Origin: a virus
IMG/VR virus record: IMGVR_UViG_3300017750_000023
Span: 1 to 41,906 of that record
DNA: 41,906 nucleotides
Strand: one strand, 5' to 3'
In this document: positions 13,137 to 38,354 of the stretch, one piece after another
Position numbering within the stretch: position 1 is the first letter of the stretch
How the letters are laid out: every line of letters starts with the position of its first letter
The notes under the pieces: generated by a model
What the model was told of the DNA's origin: nothing
Seen by the model: only the letters and a program-made list of their open reading frames with translations
Databases searched by the model: none
Made by a program: the position numbers and the translations under genes

Positions 13137-13165
13137 TTGACAAGTTAACTAATTTATAGTATAAT
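13137..13165 (+). promoter_or_regulatory. Consensus sigma70 promoter of the oxygenase gene
   Basis: TTGACA at 13137-13142, 17 bases, TATAAT at 13160-13165, preceded by AAAAAATATC, which resembles the upstream element of the minus-strand promoters. Transcription would start near 13172, about 19 bases before the ATG. Confidence 0.88.
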
Positions 13166-30031: not shown

Positions 30032-31426
30032 TTAAGCTACTGAATCAATCTTGATTACGGGCTGATCACCGCTTGCACCTGCGACGATTTCATTGAAGCC
30101 CAGAGACTGGGTAGCAACGAGTACACGACGCTGATTCATTACTTCGTAATCCTGCTCAACGGTTACACCGCGGAGTCGTGGAATCACGTAGTTACGTGCA
30201 TATACTGCGAATGCGACTGCTGCGGCATTAGCTTCTGCGGCGAACTCTTCAGAAACAACTACTGGAGAACCGAACACGGCTCCAACAGTACCAGTTACTT
30301 TGATAGCAAGCTCAGTACCTACTTCATCAAGGCTCTGGAAAGCAGAGTCACTCAACAAATCATAGTACATATTTGGGCTTACAATAAAAGTAACATCAGA
30401 AGGATTCAAGCCATACTTGCCCATTTCCTTACGTGCACCCAAGAGGGTAGCACCAGTCATGGTAGAGAAGTTGCCTGCACCTAGTGAAGCACCATCGATG
30501 TCGTGCTTAGCAGTTGCTGCTGCTGCGTGTCCATCAAGGCCAGAAATAGTACCGTTACCCTTAAGGATAGCGGCTTCTACTGCACGGCCATGTGCACGAG
30601 CAACACTTTCAACCAACATAGGCATCAAGTTAACAAGTACTTGCTCGTCAACTTCGTTATCCATGAACGTGCTTGAGATCAAGCGATAGGCGTTCAAGAT
30701 AACTTGCTTAGGCTGGTAGGTAGCGTTTGTTGCGCCACGATTTTCCAAGTTACCACCAGCAGCGGCAGTTGCCCAAGCGGCTGGATCAACATCTACCTGG
30801 ATAGGAAGAACTGTAGACTTGCCATTTACAGGAACTTCACGGAACATACGAGCGACTTTCAATTCGTTCATAATTTCCTTTTCAATCAAAGAAGAAACTT
30901 CCTGATCAATGTCACCTGCGTTAGTAGCATAGTCGATACCTGCTTTTTCTTGAATATCACGAGCAAAGTCAGTATTCCAACCTTTCTGAGTCATAACACC
31001 CAGCATGTGAGCATTCAAGAAATCTTGGCCCCACTTACTGATGTCAGACTTTTCAGAACGATCAGCGAATACACGCTTAGATTCACGCATAGCTGCAATT
31101 TCCTGCGCTTTTTCGTCTAGCTCTGACTTATACTTATTAAGCGTTTCTTCCATATCGGCGTTACGCTTATTAAGATCTTCTTGAACATCAGCCAGCAAAC
31201 GCTCAGTACCTGATTCGATACCAGTTGCGATTGCAGTTTTAACTTCTTGCTGCTGTTGAGCTTTCGTTTCTGCTTCTGCTTGAGCTTGTTCAATAGCTTG
31301 TTGTGCTGCGGCTTCATCCGTAGCTTTTTGTTCGGCTTGCTTCATTGCAATCTTTGCAGCAGTTTCTTCTGCTACTTTCTTAGCAAATGCTTCCAAGTCG
31401 ATTTCTGGAGTATTAACTTCAGACAT
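30032..31426 (-). CDS. Internal-start product: scaffold domain plus major capsid protein (464 aa)
   Basis: Within the fusion gene, AAAAGGAG lies 6 bases before an in-frame ATG (codon 205, MSEVNTPEIDL). This is among the strongest SD/ATG pairs in the window and falls exactly at the boundary between the protease and the delta-like coiled coil. Translation here would give a normal HK97-type capsid precursor. In most HK97-like phages protease and capsid are separate genes, so this start restores the usual stoichiometry. Evidence is sequence only. Confidence 0.75.
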   Translation of the reverse strand: MSEVNTPEIDLEAFAKKVAEETAAKIAMKQAEQKATDEAAAQQAIEQAQAEAETKAQQQQEVKTAIATGIESGTERLLADVQEDLNKRNADMEETLNKYKSELDEKAQEIAAMRESKRVFADRSEKSDISKWGQDFLNAHMLGVMTQKGWNTDFARDIQEKAGIDYATNAGDIDQEVSSLIEKEIMNELKVARMFREVPVNGKSTVLPIQVDVDPAAWATAAAGGNLENRGATNATYQPKQVILNAYRLISSTFMDNEVDEQVLVNLMPMLVESVARAHGRAVEAAILKGNGTISGLDGHAAAATAKHDIDGASLGAGNFSTMTGATLLGARKEMGKYGLNPSDVTFIVSPNMYYDLLSDSAFQSLDEVGTELAIKVTGTVGAVFGSPVVVSEEFAAEANAAAVAFAVYARNYVIPRLRGVTVEQDYEVMNQRRVLVATQSLGFNEIVAGASGDQPVIKIDSVA

Positions 31427-32038
31427 TTGGATCTCCTTTTGAACCTCTTCGGTTCCGTCCGGTGTATCACTAGCTACGCTAGAAGTATTAACTTCGTCTT
31501 TAGCCAGAGTCTGACCGGCTAGATCTACACGATTTGTGAAAGTTTTCTTGAATTCTTCGTACTCAGCCATGGAGTCAAAAGATTTCGCTAGTGAGAAAGT
31601 AGCCTCTTGATTGCAAGGAACGGATACAACCGATACTTCAAACAATTCAGCGTCCTTTATCTTTAGTCCGTCAGTTTCCGATAGGTAATCAGCATCCTTG
31701 ACTCGGAAACCAACAGAAAATGCTCCAAGGATACCTTCTTTAACTAACTCGCAAACATTAGCAGGTGCAGACTTGCTAATTTTTGCTTCTAACTCCAGAC
31801 CATTTTCTGTTACTTTTAGGCCTGTAGCTCGACCGATAGGACGGTCGTAATCATGATTAAAAAGAATAATAGGATTCTTCTCAAAGTTCTTTAAGCCTCC
31901 CTTTGCCCATGCTTCTCCGGAGATTGAGTCTCCAGCACGATCAAAATCAGAGGTGCTTGCCATTCCACGAATCATTACACTGCCATCCTCGGAAGGCATT
32001 GATTTAAAAGTGGAGGTAAGATTAAAAATTTTTTCCAT
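30032..32038 (-). CDS. Prohead protease-major capsid fusion protein (668 aa)
   Basis: Residues 1-150 are an HK97 gp4-type (S78) prohead protease: H62 in ILFNHDYDRPIGRA, S108 in GAFSVGF, and E134 in ELFEVSVVSVP. Residues about 205-315 are a Glu/Gln/Ala-rich coiled coil like the HK97 delta (scaffold) domain. Residues about 320-668 are an HK97-fold capsid protein (DIQEKAGIDYATNAGD; GRAVEAAILKGNGTISGL; GSPVVVSEEF; IPRLRGVTVEQDYEVMNQRRV). Protease, scaffold and shell are thus in one frame. An internal SD and ATG at 31426 would also yield scaffold-capsid alone (separate entry). Capsid codons are GC-richer (about 51% in a 240-base sample) than neighbours. The full fusion is expected as a minor component that cuts the shell proteins. 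Confidence 0.92.
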   Translation of the reverse strand: MEKIFNLTSTFKSMPSEDGSVMIRGMASTSDFDRAGDSISGEAWAKGGLKNFEKNPIILFNHDYDRPIGRATGLKVTENGLELEAKISKSAPANVCELVKEGILGAFSVGFRVKDADYLSETDGLKIKDAELFEVSVVSVPCNQEATFSLAKSFDSMAEYEEFKKTFTNRVDLAGQTLAKDEVNTSSVASDTPDGTEEVQKEIQMSEVNTPEIDLEAFAKKVAEETAAKIAMKQAEQKATDEAAAQQAIEQAQAEAETKAQQQQEVKTAIATGIESGTERLLADVQEDLNKRNADMEETLNKYKSELDEKAQEIAAMRESKRVFADRSEKSDISKWGQDFLNAHMLGVMTQKGWNTDFARDIQEKAGIDYATNAGDIDQEVSSLIEKEIMNELKVARMFREVPVNGKSTVLPIQVDVDPAAWATAAAGGNLENRGATNATYQPKQVILNAYRLISSTFMDNEVDEQVLVNLMPMLVESVARAHGRAVEAAILKGNGTISGLDGHAAAATAKHDIDGASLGAGNFSTMTGATLLGARKEMGKYGLNPSDVTFIVSPNMYYDLLSDSAFQSLDEVGTELAIKVTGTVGAVFGSPVVVSEEFAAEANAAAVAFAVYARNYVIPRLRGVTVEQDYEVMNQRRVLVATQSLGFNEIVAGASGDQPVIKIDSVA

Positions 32039-33961: not shown

Positions 33962-35263
33962 TTAAAAGCCACTGTTTGATGTCTCAAATGAGTATAAAGC
34001 ATACCTGAGAGCATCTGCCATGTGCGAAGCTTTATTATGCTTTGGCTTTTCTTTAAGTAGATTGGGGTTGGGATCCCATTGATACTGATCAAGAGCTGAT
34101 AGAGTTTCCTTACACTCTTGATCTACATGTAGCTTATCATTATCCACAATTCCTTCTACATGGGCAATCCCATCTAGGACAGACTTCTTAGCATTATTAG
34201 TACTAATATCATAGTTTTGCGCAAAGTCAAAACGAGTTTGCTGTGCGGCGGAATCAATAAATATGTAATCAATATCCCACTTATCTATGAGTCTTTGTAT
34301 TTCTCCTGCATGTTGCTCCGTAGTACGCTCTGCATCGAGATACTCGTCTACTAGGTAATACTTTTCTTCGTCCCAGTCATAAGCAATTACACACAGAGCG
34401 GTAGGATCTCTATACCCTACGTCCAGTCCTGCGAAGACATCCATCTTGCTCATATCCATATCTTGGAACGACCCCGTACATTCTTCGTAGTTATAACTCC
34501 AGACCTGACCTTCGTAAGTATTAAAGTCAGCTTCATATTCTTGACGAAACTCAGCCTCAGACATACTCTTACGAGCCTCTGCTATATCTAGTTCAGACAT
34601 TCGGGGATTTGATTTATAAGTGGCACGAATAGATGCCCACTCAGGAAACTCAGGATCAAAGCCTCTATGGAAAAACTCTGAAAACCAGTTGTTTTTACCA
34701 CGAGGAGTAGAAATAAAGATTGCTTTGGAATTATCTTTGTCAAGCGTAGGTCTAAGTGCCACATTAAAAGCATCTCTACCATCAGCAAGAGCTGCTTCAT
34801 CAAAAATAATCAAATCGTAGGATCTACCTACACAGGAATCAACTTGATTAACTGACCCCATACGCACAGTAGATCCGTTCGATAGTTCTATAACTTTATC
34901 TTTTGCATTATCTTTGACTACTTCAAGATCAAAATGTTTAATCAGTGTTCTTTGCAAGTCGAAAGATATCTGCGATAAAGCATAGTTAGGCGACATAATT
35001 AGAATGTTAGAACTAGGAATAAGAGATACTAGCTGTCCAATAATATTGGCAATGTAAGTCTTTCCCTGTCTACGAGAAACAGCCGCACAGACAAATCGAT
35101 ACTTAGGGCTATTAATAGCATTAATAATCGCTGTCTGGGAAGGTAGTGGTGTAATACCTAGCAACTCCAAATAAGGATCGATAGGCAACTTCAAAAACTT
35201 GTCTTCCTGTGTGTAATCACAAATATAATCAGAGATTATATCCTTGCGGCTAATTTCAATCAT
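33962..35263 (-). CDS. terL: Terminase large subunit (433 aa)
   Basis: ATPase part: Walker A variant S63-RRQGKT-69, Walker B IIFDEA at 152-157, coupling motif STPRG at 185-189. Nuclease part: D281 in FAGLDVGYRD, D337 in IFIDSAAQ, D417 in HMADALRYALY, the acidic residues of the RNase-H-like fold. This is the motor that pumps DNA into the prohead and cuts it. The ATG follows the stop of a 52-residue gene directly. The Terminase_6-type architecture is clear; whether packaging is by cos or headful cannot be seen, though the neighbouring HNH gene favours cos. Confidence 0.95.
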   Translation of the reverse strand: MIEISRKDIISDYICDYTQEDKFLKLPIDPYLELLGITPLPSQTAIINAINSPKYRFVCAAVSRRQGKTYIANIIGQLVSLIPSSNILIMSPNYALSQISFDLQRTLIKHFDLEVVKDNAKDKVIELSNGSTVRMGSVNQVDSCVGRSYDLIIFDEAALADGRDAFNVALRPTLDKDNSKAIFISTPRGKNNWFSEFFHRGFDPEFPEWASIRATYKSNPRMSELDIAEARKSMSEAEFRQEYEADFNTYEGQVWSYNYEECTGSFQDMDMSKMDVFAGLDVGYRDPTALCVIAYDWDEEKYYLVDEYLDAERTTEQHAGEIQRLIDKWDIDYIFIDSAAQQTRFDFAQNYDISTNNAKKSVLDGIAHVEGIVDNDKLHVDQECKETLSALDQYQWDPNPNLLKEKPKHNKASHMADALRYALYSFETSNSGF

Positions 35264-35422
35264 CTAGTCTTGTCCCATGGACCTTGTTTTGCTATACTTC
35301 CTGCAATATTCAAGTTCCGTTAATTTATCATCCTCAGCATCTTTTTTGACAGGTCGAATATTTCTTTTATATTCTTCCACGTCAGAACCCTTCCACTTAC
35401 TATTTTTTAGTTGAGATTGCAT
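35264..35422 (-). CDS. Small charged protein (52 aa)
   Basis: Short frame filling the gap before the large terminase: begins MQSQLKNSKWKGSDVEEYKRNIR and ends KTRSMGQD. AGAGGT stands about 7 bases before the ATG, and the stop (TAG) abuts the terminase ATG, so it fits the operon perfectly. Hydrophilic, no membrane segment. I do not recognise a family. Possibly a terminase accessory or simply a coupling ORF. Confidence 0.65.
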   Translation of the reverse strand: MQSQLKNSKWKGSDVEEYKRNIRPVKKDAEDDKLTELEYCRKYSKTRSMGQD

Positions 35423-35424
35423 AA

Positions 35425-35739
35425 TTACCTCTTAGACATCCATGCAGATACGCCCATATAAGCGCCTACGACGCCGGCCTGAGCAATGTAAAATAACCCG
35501 AGTAAATCTGCTAGAGCAGCTACTCGGCTCTCGCTTACAGCAGGGCTAAACAATATGGCACTAAAAACTATCATAGAGCCCATCGCAACCCATGCCATTC
35601 TTTTTTGAGCTTCTGACTTTTCTTCTCGAAGTTCTAGCTCTAACATATCTTGTGATCGTTTGATCTCTTCATCTGACACCACACCATCTCCATCTAAATC
35701 AAATTGTGCGTAGTGTGAATCTTTTTGTAATTTTTTCAT
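35425..35739 (-). CDS. EF-hand membrane protein, candidate holin (104 aa)
   Basis: Residues 14-25 form a complete EF-hand calcium loop (D14, D16, D18, G19, V21, E25 in DLDGDGVVSDEE), flanked by helices. After a charged helix come two hydrophobic segments (about residues 49-66 and 75-99: AWVAMGSMIVFSAILFSP and ADLLGLFYIAQAGVVGAYMG). Small size, two membrane segments and position among small late genes suit a holin-like protein; the calcium-binding head would be on the cytoplasmic side if the charged start stays inside. It overlaps the upstream gene by ATGA. Lysis role is inference. Confidence 0.65.
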   Translation of the reverse strand: MKKLQKDSHYAQFDLDGDGVVSDEEIKRSQDMLELELREEKSEAQKRMAWVAMGSMIVFSAILFSPAVSESRVAALADLLGLFYIAQAGVVGAYMGVSAWMSKR

Positions 35740-36191
35740 GGCAGTAGAATAAATAGGGCGCCTGCGGCTACTGTACCGCCAATTATTAAAGTAGTAAATC
35801 CAACTAAGATTTGTTGTAATAAATGCTCTCTTTCTCGTCGTTTTCTGGCTACCATAGCCATTTGCTGCTTTCTTGCGTGCTCTTGTTCTGCTTTAGCTTG
35901 TTGAAAGCTTTTAAGCATTTCAGGGTCTATCATAGCTAACAGATCATGGACATCTTTCCAGTGTCTCTCATAGCTTTTCTTAATCATTGTAAGCTTGAGC
36001 AGCTCGCTTTGACTAAGAGGGTTAAAAGTACTGGATTTTCTTCTTACCTCAAATTCAGTAACTGCTTCCCCAAAGTCACTGATGGTACCCATGAGCTGCT
36101 GCATTCCTTGACCGGTTTCATTGGCTTTTTGTATAAGACCATTTATCTGTGACAAAATAGTACTGGCCATCACTACTGATTCTATAACCAT
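35736..36191 (-). CDS. Helical protein with C-terminal membrane anchor (151 aa)
   Basis: Long helices (ILSQINGLIQKANETGQGMQQLMGTISDFGEAV; SELLKLTMIKKSYERHWKDVHDLLAMI), a basic segment (ARKQQMAMVARKRREREHL) and one C-terminal hydrophobic segment (VGFTTLIIGGTVAAGALFILLP). Tail-anchored topology. Similar proteins occur in the small-gene cluster of other marine phages as far as I recall, with no known function. Possibilities are a lysis accessory or membrane-associated assembly factor. The start is uncertain by 7 codons (ATG at 36191 or 36170); neither has a strong SD. Confidence 0.6.
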   Translation of the reverse strand: MVIESVVMASTILSQINGLIQKANETGQGMQQLMGTISDFGEAVTEFEVRRKSSTFNPLSQSELLKLTMIKKSYERHWKDVHDLLAMIDPEMLKSFQQAKAEQEHARKQQMAMVARKRREREHLLQQILVGFTTLIIGGTVAAGALFILLP

Positions 36192-36194
36192 GGT

Positions 36195-36500
36195 CTACCA
36201 CTTTACTTTGTCCGCCCAGTATGCTGCGGACATCTTGCCCTTTGCAATATTCTTTGCATGTCGGGCTTTGAATGAAGCACGTTTACGCTTCATTGCTTCG
36301 CTTTCTCCTTTCTTAGGTTTACCGGCTGTTTTTGCTCCTTGCTGACCAAAACGAATAGTTTTAACTTTATCTCCTGATTTGGCTACAACAATGTGTGATT
36401 TCTTTGCATGTCCAGGAGTGCGCTTGGGTTTATTAAAACCAGAGACACCCGCGCGTTTTACTGCAGGATGCTTTTTCTTAACGCTTTTTCTTCTTGCCAC
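36195..36500 (-). CDS. Small Lys-rich protein (101 aa)
   Basis: Start chosen at GTG 36500 (read as M-ARRKSVKKKHP) because GGAG lies 8 bases upstream; a frame extending to 36530 lacks this and overlaps the preceding 32-codon gene more. Strongly basic throughout: KKKHPAVKRAGVSGFNKPKRT, then KSHIVVAKSGDKVKTIRFGQQG, and the end FKARHAKNIAKGKMSAAYWADKVKW. The 'KTIRFGQQG ... RR.SFKARH..NI..GK.S..YWA.K..W' pattern is one I recall in marine phage and some large-virus proteins of unknown function. Possibly binds DNA or RNA. Confidence 0.7.
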   Translation of the reverse strand: MARRKSVKKKHPAVKRAGVSGFNKPKRTPGHAKKSHIVVAKSGDKVKTIRFGQQGAKTAGKPKKGESEAMKRKRASFKARHAKNIAKGKMSAAYWADKVKW

Positions 36501-36576
36501 GTCGTCTTCTCCGCTTTTTCTTTCCTGCAACTTGTCGAGTTATGCCAGGAACCTTGGCTATACTAATACCCGCCAT
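36478..36576 (-). CDS. Tiny Arg/Lys-tailed protein (32 aa)
   Basis: Very short frame: MAGISIAKVPGITRQVAGK, followed by a tail KKRRRRRGKKKKR. The ATG overlaps the TAA of the upstream gene (TAATG), and the last 23 bases overlap the next gene, so it sits exactly in the operon's coupling pattern; without it there would be a 75-base gap in an otherwise gapless cluster. The tail is protamine-like. The same bases read in another frame give the N-terminal extension of the next gene, so part of the Arg/Lys richness is shared. Translation is not proven. Confidence 0.6.
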   Translation of the reverse strand: MAGISIAKVPGITRQVAGKKKRRRRRGKKKKR

Positions 36577-36851
36577 TACTTTTTACCCCGTCTTTTTCTC
36601 CTTTTAACAAAAGTACTAACATTAGTAGGTTTGCCTCCAGGATTGCCGGCCGCTCTTTTTCTACGGACAGCTGACTTTCGTTGCTTTTCAGTAAGACCAG
36701 CGGCTTTGGCAGCAGGAAGACATTTTGGATAACGTTTTTTTCCTGATTTGGTTCTTCCGCATTTTTCAAAGCCGCCGCTCTTTTTAGGTCTGGATATATC
36801 TACCCAATCTTCTTTAAACCACTTAGTAAGACCACCTTTTGGTTTAGCCAT
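36576..36851 (-). CDS. Small basic protein, 'KGGLTKWFKEDWVDISRPK' family (91 aa)
   Basis: N-terminal MAKPKGGLTKWFKEDWVDISRP, then a Cys-containing segment FEKCGRTKSGKKRYPKCLPAAKAAGL with two cysteines 17 residues apart, then very basic sequence (KQRKSAVRRKRAAGNPGGKPT; end KRRKRRGKK). This family is widespread in marine phages and giant viruses in my recollection (domain of unknown function). GGAGAG precedes the ATG and the gene overlaps the upstream one by 8 bases. Likely a nucleic-acid-binding virion or late protein; unproven. Confidence 0.75.
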   Translation of the reverse strand: MAKPKGGLTKWFKEDWVDISRPKKSGGFEKCGRTKSGKKRYPKCLPAAKAAGLTEKQRKSAVRRKRAAGNPGGKPTNVSTFVKRRKRRGKK

Positions 36852-37137
36852 TATTCTCTCCGCTATGGAGTAAGACCTCCAACTCTTTTATCTTTAACTC
36901 TAAGTCTCTAACTCTTGTTACAGTATCACTTACCTCTGGCGGAGGAGAGAAATTATCAATCCACTCGTCATTTTCTTCAACCTCTATTGATACCGCCTGT
37001 AAGTTATGCTCTAAAAAGGCTATTCTCTCCGTAATACCGGTATAAGCCCACACAGATACTGCAGTAAAGGTTACTAACCCTATTAAATTCTTTAAAGGTA
37101 TGGCTAACTCTGTTGCTTCGTTTATCTTTGTGGGCAT
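36844..37137 (-). CDS. Membrane protein with coiled-coil tail (97 aa)
   Basis: One N-terminal membrane segment (IPLKNLIGLVTFTAVSVWAYTGI) followed by long helices (ERIAFLEHNLQAVSIEVEEN and TVTRVRDLELKIKELEVLLH). SD GAGG lies about 6 bases before ATG. Topology (membrane segment then coiled coil) would fit an inner-membrane spanin or a holin partner, but no lipoprotein partner or endolysin is seen here, so this remains open. Similar proteins are common in marine phages in my recollection. Confidence 0.6.
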   Translation of the reverse strand: MPTKINEATELAIPLKNLIGLVTFTAVSVWAYTGITERIAFLEHNLQAVSIEVEENDEWIDNFSPPPEVSDTVTRVRDLELKIKELEVLLHSGENNG

Positions 37138-37176
37138 AATACCTCGCTTATAGACAACTGCCTATCGCTTAGAAGG

Positions 37177-37338
37177 TCACTTTTTTCCGCGCTTCTTTTT
37201 TAAAATAGCTTTTTGAAGTGCTGGAGGCAGCTTCTTTTGAGCGGCTGTTAAGCCTCCCATAGACTTCTTCTTCTTGCCCTTACCTTTCTTGGCTGGACGA
37301 CCTCTTTTCTTTCCGTAAGTTCCTTTACCTGCTGGCAT
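37177..37338 (-). CDS. Tiny Lys-rich protein (53 aa)
   Basis: Begins MPAGKGTYGKKRGRPAKKGKG and continues with a KKKK run, then SMGGLTAAQKKLPPALQKAIL and a basic end KKKRGKK. The GRP core resembles the AT-hook motif (GRP flanked by basic residues), which binds the minor groove of AT-rich DNA. ATG overlaps the TAA of the upstream gene (TAATG). Family style is known from marine phages; DNA binding is inferred. Confidence 0.68.
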   Translation of the reverse strand: MPAGKGTYGKKRGRPAKKGKGKKKKSMGGLTAAQKKLPPALQKAILKKKRGKK

Positions 37339-37523
37339 TACTTTACTCCCATGCGGTATTTCCCGCCTTTGGCTTTATAAGTTTTTACAAGCCACCCATT
37401 TGCATAAGCTGAAGGATATACAGCAAACTTTCGTTTGGCCTGTGCCTTCACTCGTGCGTAAAGTTTTTTATTTGTAGGAACAGGCTTTTTCTTTGCAGCC
37501 TTTTTGCGTTTACGAACAGCCAC
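37338..37523 (-). CDS. Small basic protein (61 aa)
   Basis: Starts with GTG directly after the upstream stop: (M)AVRKRKKAAKKKPVPTNKKLY, then ARVKAQAKRKFAVYPSAYANGW and LVKTYKAKGGKYRMGVK. The pattern 'LYARVKA.AKRKF.VYPSAYANGWLVK.YK..GGKYR' is one I recall as a widespread small viral protein family of unknown function. The conserved Trp/Tyr core and basic tail suggest a folded nucleic-acid-binding module. No SD is obvious, so translation is probably coupled to the upstream gene. Confidence 0.72.
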   Translation of the reverse strand: MAVRKRKKAAKKKPVPTNKKLYARVKAQAKRKFAVYPSAYANGWLVKTYKAKGGKYRMGVK

Positions 37524-37685
37524 TTATGCGTCCGCTGAAAAAAGATCCTTGCTCTTAACCACTGCTGCCGCTTCTTTTTTCTTTTCGCCATTTTCGTAGG
37601 CTTCTGCATCTTTTTGATTGGAAAAGCCCTTTTTTCCTTTATCAGGGTTAATTCCCCACCAAGTATTTCTTTTTTGATAAGCCAT
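37524..37685 (-). CDS. Small protein, 'KRNTWWGINPDKGKKGF' type (53 aa)
   Basis: Begins MAYQKRNTWWGINPDKGKKGF, followed by a charged helix (SNQKDAEAYENGEKKKEAAAVV) and SKDLFSADA. AGGAG stands about 8 bases before the ATG, the clearest SD in the cluster. The stop abuts the GTG of the next gene. No function known to me. Confidence 0.65.
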   Translation of the reverse strand: MAYQKRNTWWGINPDKGKKGFSNQKDAEAYENGEKKKEAAAVVKSKDLFSADA

Positions 37686-37696
37686 TTTTTTATCTC

Positions 37697-37903
37697 CTAC
37701 ACTTGGAATGCAAGTGTTACTACTAGTCCTAATAGGAATAGTATTAGTGCTCCGCCAAACTGTAGTTGACGCTGTTCCATTCTGTCCAATTTCTCATCAA
37801 TATCATCTAGTCGATTAAATGTGGTTTTCCATCTTTCTTCACACTGAACTTCATGACGTAGAAACTGCTCGACAACATTGTCTAGCTTACGATCGTCAGA
37901 CAT
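37697..37903 (-). CDS. XhlA-like coiled-coil/membrane protein (68 aa)
   Basis: N-terminal charged coiled coil (FLRHEVQCEERWKTTFNRLDDIDEKLDRMEQRQ broken into heptads) followed by one C-terminal membrane segment (FGGALILFLLGLVVTLAFQV). This topology and length match haemolysin XhlA-like proteins, which can assist holins. The ATG overlaps the end of the small terminase gene by 8 bases. A lysis role is possible but not shown; no endolysin lies in the window. Confidence 0.6.
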   Translation of the reverse strand: MSDDRKLDNVVEQFLRHEVQCEERWKTTFNRLDDIDEKLDRMEQRQLQFGGALILFLLGLVVTLAFQV

Positions 37904-38354
37904 CTTTTAACAACTTTTCCATGAGCTTACCGTAGTTGCCCTGGCCGAAAGGTACACCTTCATTTATTTGAACATTTGTTTGACTTTTTACGTTTGTAGC
38001 TTGAGCTTTTTCAAGATCAGCTTGAGCCTTAATCTCGTCCATTCTCATCTTATGTGCCATTTGTAACAAGTCTGCTAAATCCTTACTAGAGTAAACTCCG
38101 GTTTCTTTCGCTTCGTCAAGCTTACTTTCAATCATCTCGTCTAGTAAACTTGCAATATTATTTTTGTTGCGATACCCCATATCTAAGTAAACAGTATCAA
38201 TATACTTTTTTACTTCACGTTTGTTGAGCAACTCTACGACTTGGTTTTCAGAAACCCCGAGAGATTGCACGACCCCGTTGATATTGCCGAACTGCAAGTA
38301 ACTATTAGCTACTTCAAGTCCCTCTGGGGAGATTGTAGTTAATTCTTTAGCCAT
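37896..38354 (-). CDS. terS: Terminase small subunit (152 aa)
   Basis: N-terminal helix-turn-helix-like part (GLEVANSYLQFGNINGVVQSLGVSENQVVELL), then KREVKKYIDTVYLDMGYRNK and a long coiled-coil helix (KDLADLLQMAHKMRMDEIKAQADLEKAQA), ending in NYGKLMEKLLKDV. This is the layout of small terminases, which recognise the packaging start. It is the first gene of the operon that contains the large subunit. The promoter -10 box ends 7 bases before the ATG, so the mRNA should begin at or next to the ATG, without any SD. The N-terminus agrees with the family, so a later start is unlikely. Confidence 0.8.
   Translation of the reverse strand: MAKELTTISPEGLEVANSYLQFGNINGVVQSLGVSENQVVELLNKREVKKYIDTVYLDMGYRNKNNIASLLDEMIESKLDEAKETGVYSSKDLADLLQMAHKMRMDEIKAQADLEKAQATNVKSQTNVQINEGVPFGQGNYGKLMEKLLKDV

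Follow-up and report, generated by a model that had tools for sequence, protein, structure and literature searches.

Between the genes for the small and large terminase subunits (TerS and TerL) of the virus record IMGVR_UViG_3300017750_000023, the whole 41.9 kb of which was analysed here and is called the window, a cassette of small genes on the minus strand encodes five strongly basic proteins, the products of genes e, d, c, b and a, which in our judgement have about an even chance of being late, virion-associated, putative DNA-binding head proteins loaded around packaging. New here are the division of one domain between genes e and c, a fused counterpart of the cassette beside T4-type terminases, the link of gene a to a head protease, and the detection of fused relatives in virions.

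The six open reading frames that the original prediction had placed between the two terminase genes were all found there, on the minus strand (Table 1), and they are joined as it had described, by an abutting TAA-GTG and by TAATG overlaps at 37338 and 36576; the last two genes, b and a, overlap by 23 bases. Two parts of that description had to be narrowed, however. Five of the six proteins are strongly basic, with net charges of +15 to +28, but gene f reaches only +3, and the cluster is not an uninterrupted run, since an acidic membrane-type gene (36844-37137) lies within it. Four more small genes, three of them of membrane type, are found between the cassette and the terminase genes. The four small membrane-type genes that thus stand among the basic ones (37697-37903, 36844-37137, 35736-36191 and 35425-35739), one of which has an EF-hand-like DLDGDGVVSDEE loop, could be lysis genes. 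Beyond the promoter that follows TerL come a portal gene and then a single gene (30032-32038) in which an S78 prohead protease is fused to an HK97-type major capsid protein.

Table 1. Features of the terminase region of the window, listed from TerS towards TerL.
Feature	Position	Strand	Remarks
Promoter TTGACA-N17-TATAAT, perfect sigma-70	38390-38362	-	predicted operon start
Terminase small subunit (TerS)	37896-38354	-	phrog_3802, E 2.3e-39
Membrane-type gene, 68 aa	37697-37903	-	between TerS and gene f
Gene f, 53 aa, Lys+Arg 21%, net +3	37524-37685	-	weakly basic
Gene e, 61 aa, Lys+Arg 34%, net +21	37338-37523	-	DUF5872 N-terminal half
Gene d, 53 aa, Lys+Arg 40%, net +21	37177-37338	-	Lys-rich, AT-hook-like KKRGRP
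Acidic membrane-type protein, 97 aa	36844-37137	-	phrog_20984; inside cassette, outside basic set
Gene c, 91 aa, Lys+Arg 34%, net +26	36576-36851	-	phrog_23735, E 1.6e-27; DUF5872 C-terminal half
Gene b, 32 aa, Lys+Arg 47%, net +15	36478-36576	-	conserved head and protamine-like tail
Gene a, 101 aa, Lys+Arg 32%, net +28	36195-36500	-	phrog_7595, E 1.8e-40
Three further small genes after gene a	35736-36191, 35425-35739, 35264-35422	-	before TerL
Terminase large subunit (TerL), T5-type	33962-35263	-	Terminase_6N/6C; 48% identity to T5-type TerL
Second perfect sigma-70 promoter	33938-33910	-	directly after TerL; start of next unit

The cassette ORFs are genuine conserved genes. All six show purifying selection when compared with their relatives (pN/pS 0.16-0.23), the value for gene b (36478) resting on one relative at no less than 75% identity and that for gene f (37524) on three. 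Among 33 relatives picked by the large terminase alone, in 30 the 4.5 kb upstream of TerL contain at least two small ORFs for basic proteins, while the same holds for the 4.5 kb downstream of it in only 2 of 29. The order TerS-e-d-c-(b)-a-TerL is conserved, and of the 43 contigs reaching 2.5 kb or more upstream, 38 carry gene a. A search of 84,980 species genomes located this gene at 57 loci, nearly all in records titled MAGs or bins, and this near confinement to metagenome-assembled bins fits a virus gene.

Five perfect TTGACA-N17-TATAAT sites, all with 17-base spacers, occur in the window, at 13137-13165 on the plus strand and at 33938-33910, 38390-38362, 39974-39946 and 40470-40442 on the minus strand, against an expectation of 0.47 even with one mismatch allowed. 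Of 60 unique relatives, 36 also have a near-perfect promoter ahead of TerS, where 0.7 would be expected, and such matches fall inside only 3/130 e-to-a spans. Co-transcription with both terminase genes, as originally proposed, is therefore supported by promoters that bracket the cassette and are almost lacking inside it, a pattern which suggests that TerS through TerL form one predicted operon. The end of the promoter at 38390-38362 is 7 bases from the TerS ATG, and an mRNA begun there would therefore be nearly leaderless.

Judged by profile comparison, genes e and c each encode one half of DUF5872 (PF19197), e the N-terminal and c the C-terminal one; elsewhere the domain is a single chain. 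Gene e, with the core motif KFxVYPSAYANxWLVKxYKxxGG, scores above the Pfam cut-off of 27.5 bits over the first third of the domain (positions 1-39, E 2.3e-10, 41.5 bits). Gene c itself stays under the cut-off (positions 51-89, E 2e-4, 22.4 bits), and its relative in phage P-SCSP2 (L296:7420-7677), recognised by the gene c profile at E 5e-13, lies above it over the second half (positions 55-112, E 5e-14, 53.3 bits). What Pfam models as one chain is not found in one polypeptide in the window, where e and c are distinct genes. The two keep close company: gene e is present in 158 of the 167 metagenomic loci that hold gene c, precedes it in 145 of 148 pairs and lies within 250 bp of it in 117. Fourteen columns are invariant in gene c (alignment A2) and 14 in gene e (alignment A3), and the Cys pair that had been noticed in one of the proteins was confirmed in gene c as a conserved CGR...YPKC. 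Two further sequences (L088 and L091) resemble joined DUF5872 halves by eye, had no Pfam match and were left unused. DUF5872 is also on record from CpV-BQ1, a giant virus of algae (PMC12085832), and a single mention was found in the literature on the function of DUF5872 and DUF6321.

In unrelated marine phages, profile matches reveal the same modules, either in individual genes or joined together. In the T4-like cyanophage S-BM3, the T4-GC119 protein (337 aa, net +40) unites the c and e modules, in the order c-e, with DUF6321 (PF19846; RRKSFCAR...RWKC), and its gene adjoins that of the small terminase. The homologues of S-SM1, whose record annotates the protein as hypothetical, and of ACG-2014f follow the small terminase, that of ACG-2014f lying between TerS and TerL, while in S-SSM7 the gene sits elsewhere, not beside the terminases. 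T4-GC119 proteins (phrog_727 and phrog_3477) resemble the cassette in carrying c and/or e modules, in being basic and, S-SSM7 excepted, in lying beside or between gp16 and gp17 in the phages examined; they differ from it in forming one long fused chain that ends in DUF6321, for which a Pfam search gave no match in the cassette genes of the window. In 2010, T4-GC119 was described as hypothetical and as part of a mobile cassette (PMC3037559). Other arrangements were also found, DUF6321 being joined to the e module in one metagenomic ORF (L050), and separate e, c and DUF6321 genes lying between the scaffold and capsid genes in P-SCSP2, a T7-like Prochlorococcus phage.

Relatives bearing these modules have been detected in virions. 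In S-CREM2, 52 of about 220 proteins were detected in the virion proteome (PMC10665884 Table 3), gp137, gp136 and gp160 all among them. The first of these is encoded between the terminase genes and contains DUF6321 (E 3.5e-10), and gp160 shows an e module (hhalign E 4e-6) together with a weak c module (E 0.0014). In a scan of nearly the whole genome, gp137 and gp160 were the only proteins with cassette modules, and the chance of both falling among the virion-detected proteins is about 5%. CsCl-purified virions can carry contaminants, as the authors of that study noted (PMC10665884). The same proteome contains gp136 (L309:6302-7015), a basic protein (pI 10) that is also encoded between the terminases and was detected by 8 peptides, with no cassette module match, and gp12 (L452:7704-10313), which is annotated as a Cas9/Csn1 nuclease. 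The virion proteome of S-SZBM1, with 30 proteins shallower than that of S-CREM2 (PMC9146016), includes neither the DUF6321 protein _192 nor the basic _194 from between its terminases, and S-SZBM1_139, which was detected, carries only a CWxGYK motif. Among its top proteins (emPAI 2.66) is S-SZBM1_195 (L311:17378-17641), of 87 aa, encoded next to TerS; considered as a cassette relative on account of its size, detection and location, it was rejected as acidic and unrelated, as were the small, virion-detected ORF009 and ORF020 of P-SS2.

A second line of evidence comes from gene a, which its alignments identify as a counterpart, encoded on its own, of the domain at the C-terminus of ICP1 ORF125. 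Residues 8-101 align to positions 3-96 of the 96 in phrog_7595, and profile comparison matches gene a to residues 188-262 of ORF125 (E 1.4e-6, 33% identity), that is, to the last 75 residues of a protein whose N-terminal domain is an XkdF-type prohead protease. Gene a has no Pfam match: the XkdF serine protease domain (PF14550) is absent from it and only the non-protease tail domain is common to both, whereas the head protease of the window is of the S78 type and fused to the capsid protein. Fold matches of the gene a model in BFVD are to viral predicted structures only, one of them named XkdF and another, matched weakly, from Tunisvirus. Taken together, the virion-detected fused relatives of S-CREM2 and the homology that gene a has with a head protease's tail domain lend support to the reading of the cassette products as putative internal head proteins. 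The original prediction had left the choice between packaging partners and internal head proteins; these observations favour a role inside the head or in its assembly over one as terminase partners as such.

The homology of gene a would also suit factors of prohead assembly or maturation that work with a scaffold or head protease and possibly leave the virion, their charge serving contacts with acidic scaffold or capsid surfaces. This explanation, which we regard as rather unlikely, draws on the relation of gene a to the XkdF-type protease of ICP1 and on the XkdF among its BFVD matches, on the position of the P-SCSP2 cassette between scaffold and capsid genes, on the residue-specific character of the conservation, and on the S-SZBM1 virion data, from which the DUF6321 protein is missing. 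It is opposed by the presence of fused relatives in S-CREM2 virions and by the polycationic tails, such as that of gene b with its 47% Lys/Arg, which are unusual for scaffold partners and better suit nucleic acid. The description of gene b as almost a protamine tail was borne out, the protein consisting of a conserved 16-residue head (GISIAxVPGxTRQV) followed by a polycationic tail. The AT-hook-like GRP core, on the contrary, is present in gene d as KKRGRP but was rejected as the defining feature of its family, RGRP occurring in only 37 of 78 unique members; the family core is LTAxQKKLPxALQxAI, of which LTAxQKKLP is found in 67 of the 78. As several proteins related to that of gene f are acidic, gene f probably does not belong functionally with the basic genes. 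Its relatives (L011:9443-9640 and kin) end in a tail that is acidic and rich in Cys, CEDCECDPCECEDE.

The genomic surroundings of the families bear on whether the proteins could instead be accessories of the packaging motor. Wherever a metagenomic locus has a gene for terminase, portal or capsid no more than 6 kb away, the nearest such gene is on the same strand (156/156 for a, 112/112 for c and 103/103 for e); a terminase falls inside this distance in 142/206, 96/140 and 88/135 loci, respectively, counts in which many contigs are partial and the structural-gene profiles do not span all lineages. In isolates, cassette families occur with capsid and other structural genes (HTVC023P, HTVC027P and DSL-LC04), between minor head and coat genes (KBS-S-2A), a few kb from the capsid gene (S-CBS2), at the end of the structural operon (P12053L), and ~2.4 kb before the small terminase (CRP-603). 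Late virion genes are thus the general context of these families, while adjacency to the terminases, on which the original prediction had built, is specific to certain lineages, other phages having the families near capsid, scaffold or internal-protein genes. Small DNA-binding helpers for terminase recognition, holding or cutting, comparable to lambda gpFI or IHF-type proteins, would agree with the placement of the genes between TerS and TerL both here, where the terminase is T5-type, and in cyanomyoviruses, where it is of the unrelated T4 type, and with the single predicted transcription unit formed with the terminases. The placement of the families away from the terminase in several isolates speaks against such helpers, and so do enteric T5-like phages, whose TerL is 48% identical and in which no match for a, c or e was found; the cassette was for this reason also rejected as a trait of the T5 family, and a motor role appears quite improbable.

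Sequence searches of the PDB with a, c, e, P0001 and DUF6321 returned nothing significant. The AlphaFold model of gene a reached a mean pLDDT of 80, where the other four models gave 50-61, and that of gene c reached 67. Neither had a PDB fold match at E <1, and confidence in the predictions was too low for a fold to be assigned; no solved structure or fold match from the PDB searches supports DNA binding by the cassette proteins. That the PDB matches, all non-significant, are mostly to ribosomal proteins, and that host-takeover loci typically contain tiny, basic genes of partly lineage-specific distribution, would suit late or ejected proteins that bind nucleic acid and target the nucleoid, RNA or ribosomes of the host, their linkage to late genes being incidental. 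This is the least probable explanation in view of the constant late-module location and strand, the homology of gene a to a head protease domain and the modules found in virion-detected proteins.

If the proteins are, as we prefer, head components loaded around packaging, they would be made while heads assemble and would then enter the prohead, the gene a product through a contact of protease or scaffold type and the e and c products as a two-chain complex. Their Lys/Arg-rich arms may bind the DNA as it enters, either on the inner face of the capsid or around the portal, where the bound arms would neutralise a minor share of its charge and might help to order the DNA or protect it at ejection. 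One copy each of a-e provides about +111 charge; for 10% of the charge of a genome of 42 or 78 kb to be neutralised, about 76 or 141 copies of each protein would be needed, arithmetic that plausibly fits a layer at the surface or portal and less so bulk condensation. Residue-specific conservation in a, c and e, including 26 invariant columns in gene a (alignment A1), indicates that they are not mere charge brushes and points to specific contacts besides charge.

Internal head proteins IPI-III of T4 and ejected proteins of giant phages such as SPN3US lie inside the head, the location proposed here for the cassette; no sequence relation to them was found, and the modularity and between-terminase location of the cassette set it apart. 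To our knowledge, protamine-like or core proteins are generally thought not to be used by tailed phages. With such proteins of adenoviruses and baculoviruses, and with the basic virion proteins of PBCV-1 (PMC3281028), the cassette proteins share a very basic composition and a proposed neutralisation of DNA charge. The 2012 chlorovirus paper saw no evidence for basic proteins contributing much to the neutralisation of phage DNA (PMC3281028).

A wider and more speculative proposal, which we consider unlikely, is that T4-, T5- and T7-like marine phages draw on a common, freely combined stock of basic nucleoprotein modules, which may be split or joined and some of which are also present in giant algal viruses, and that these modules form a putative chromatin-like layer on packaged DNA. 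If true, such a layer would run against the view that phage DNA is neutralised by ions and polyamines only. Although they abound in marine viral data, the cassette families are all labelled unknown or missed by annotation, and their treatment as one basic, virion-linked class of separable modules would gather many orphan genes under one testable question. That question is whether DNA-binding proteins are present inside the heads of marine tailed phages, and culturable isolates (P-SCSP2, S-CREM2, and Pelagibacter and Roseobacter phages) put its test within reach now.
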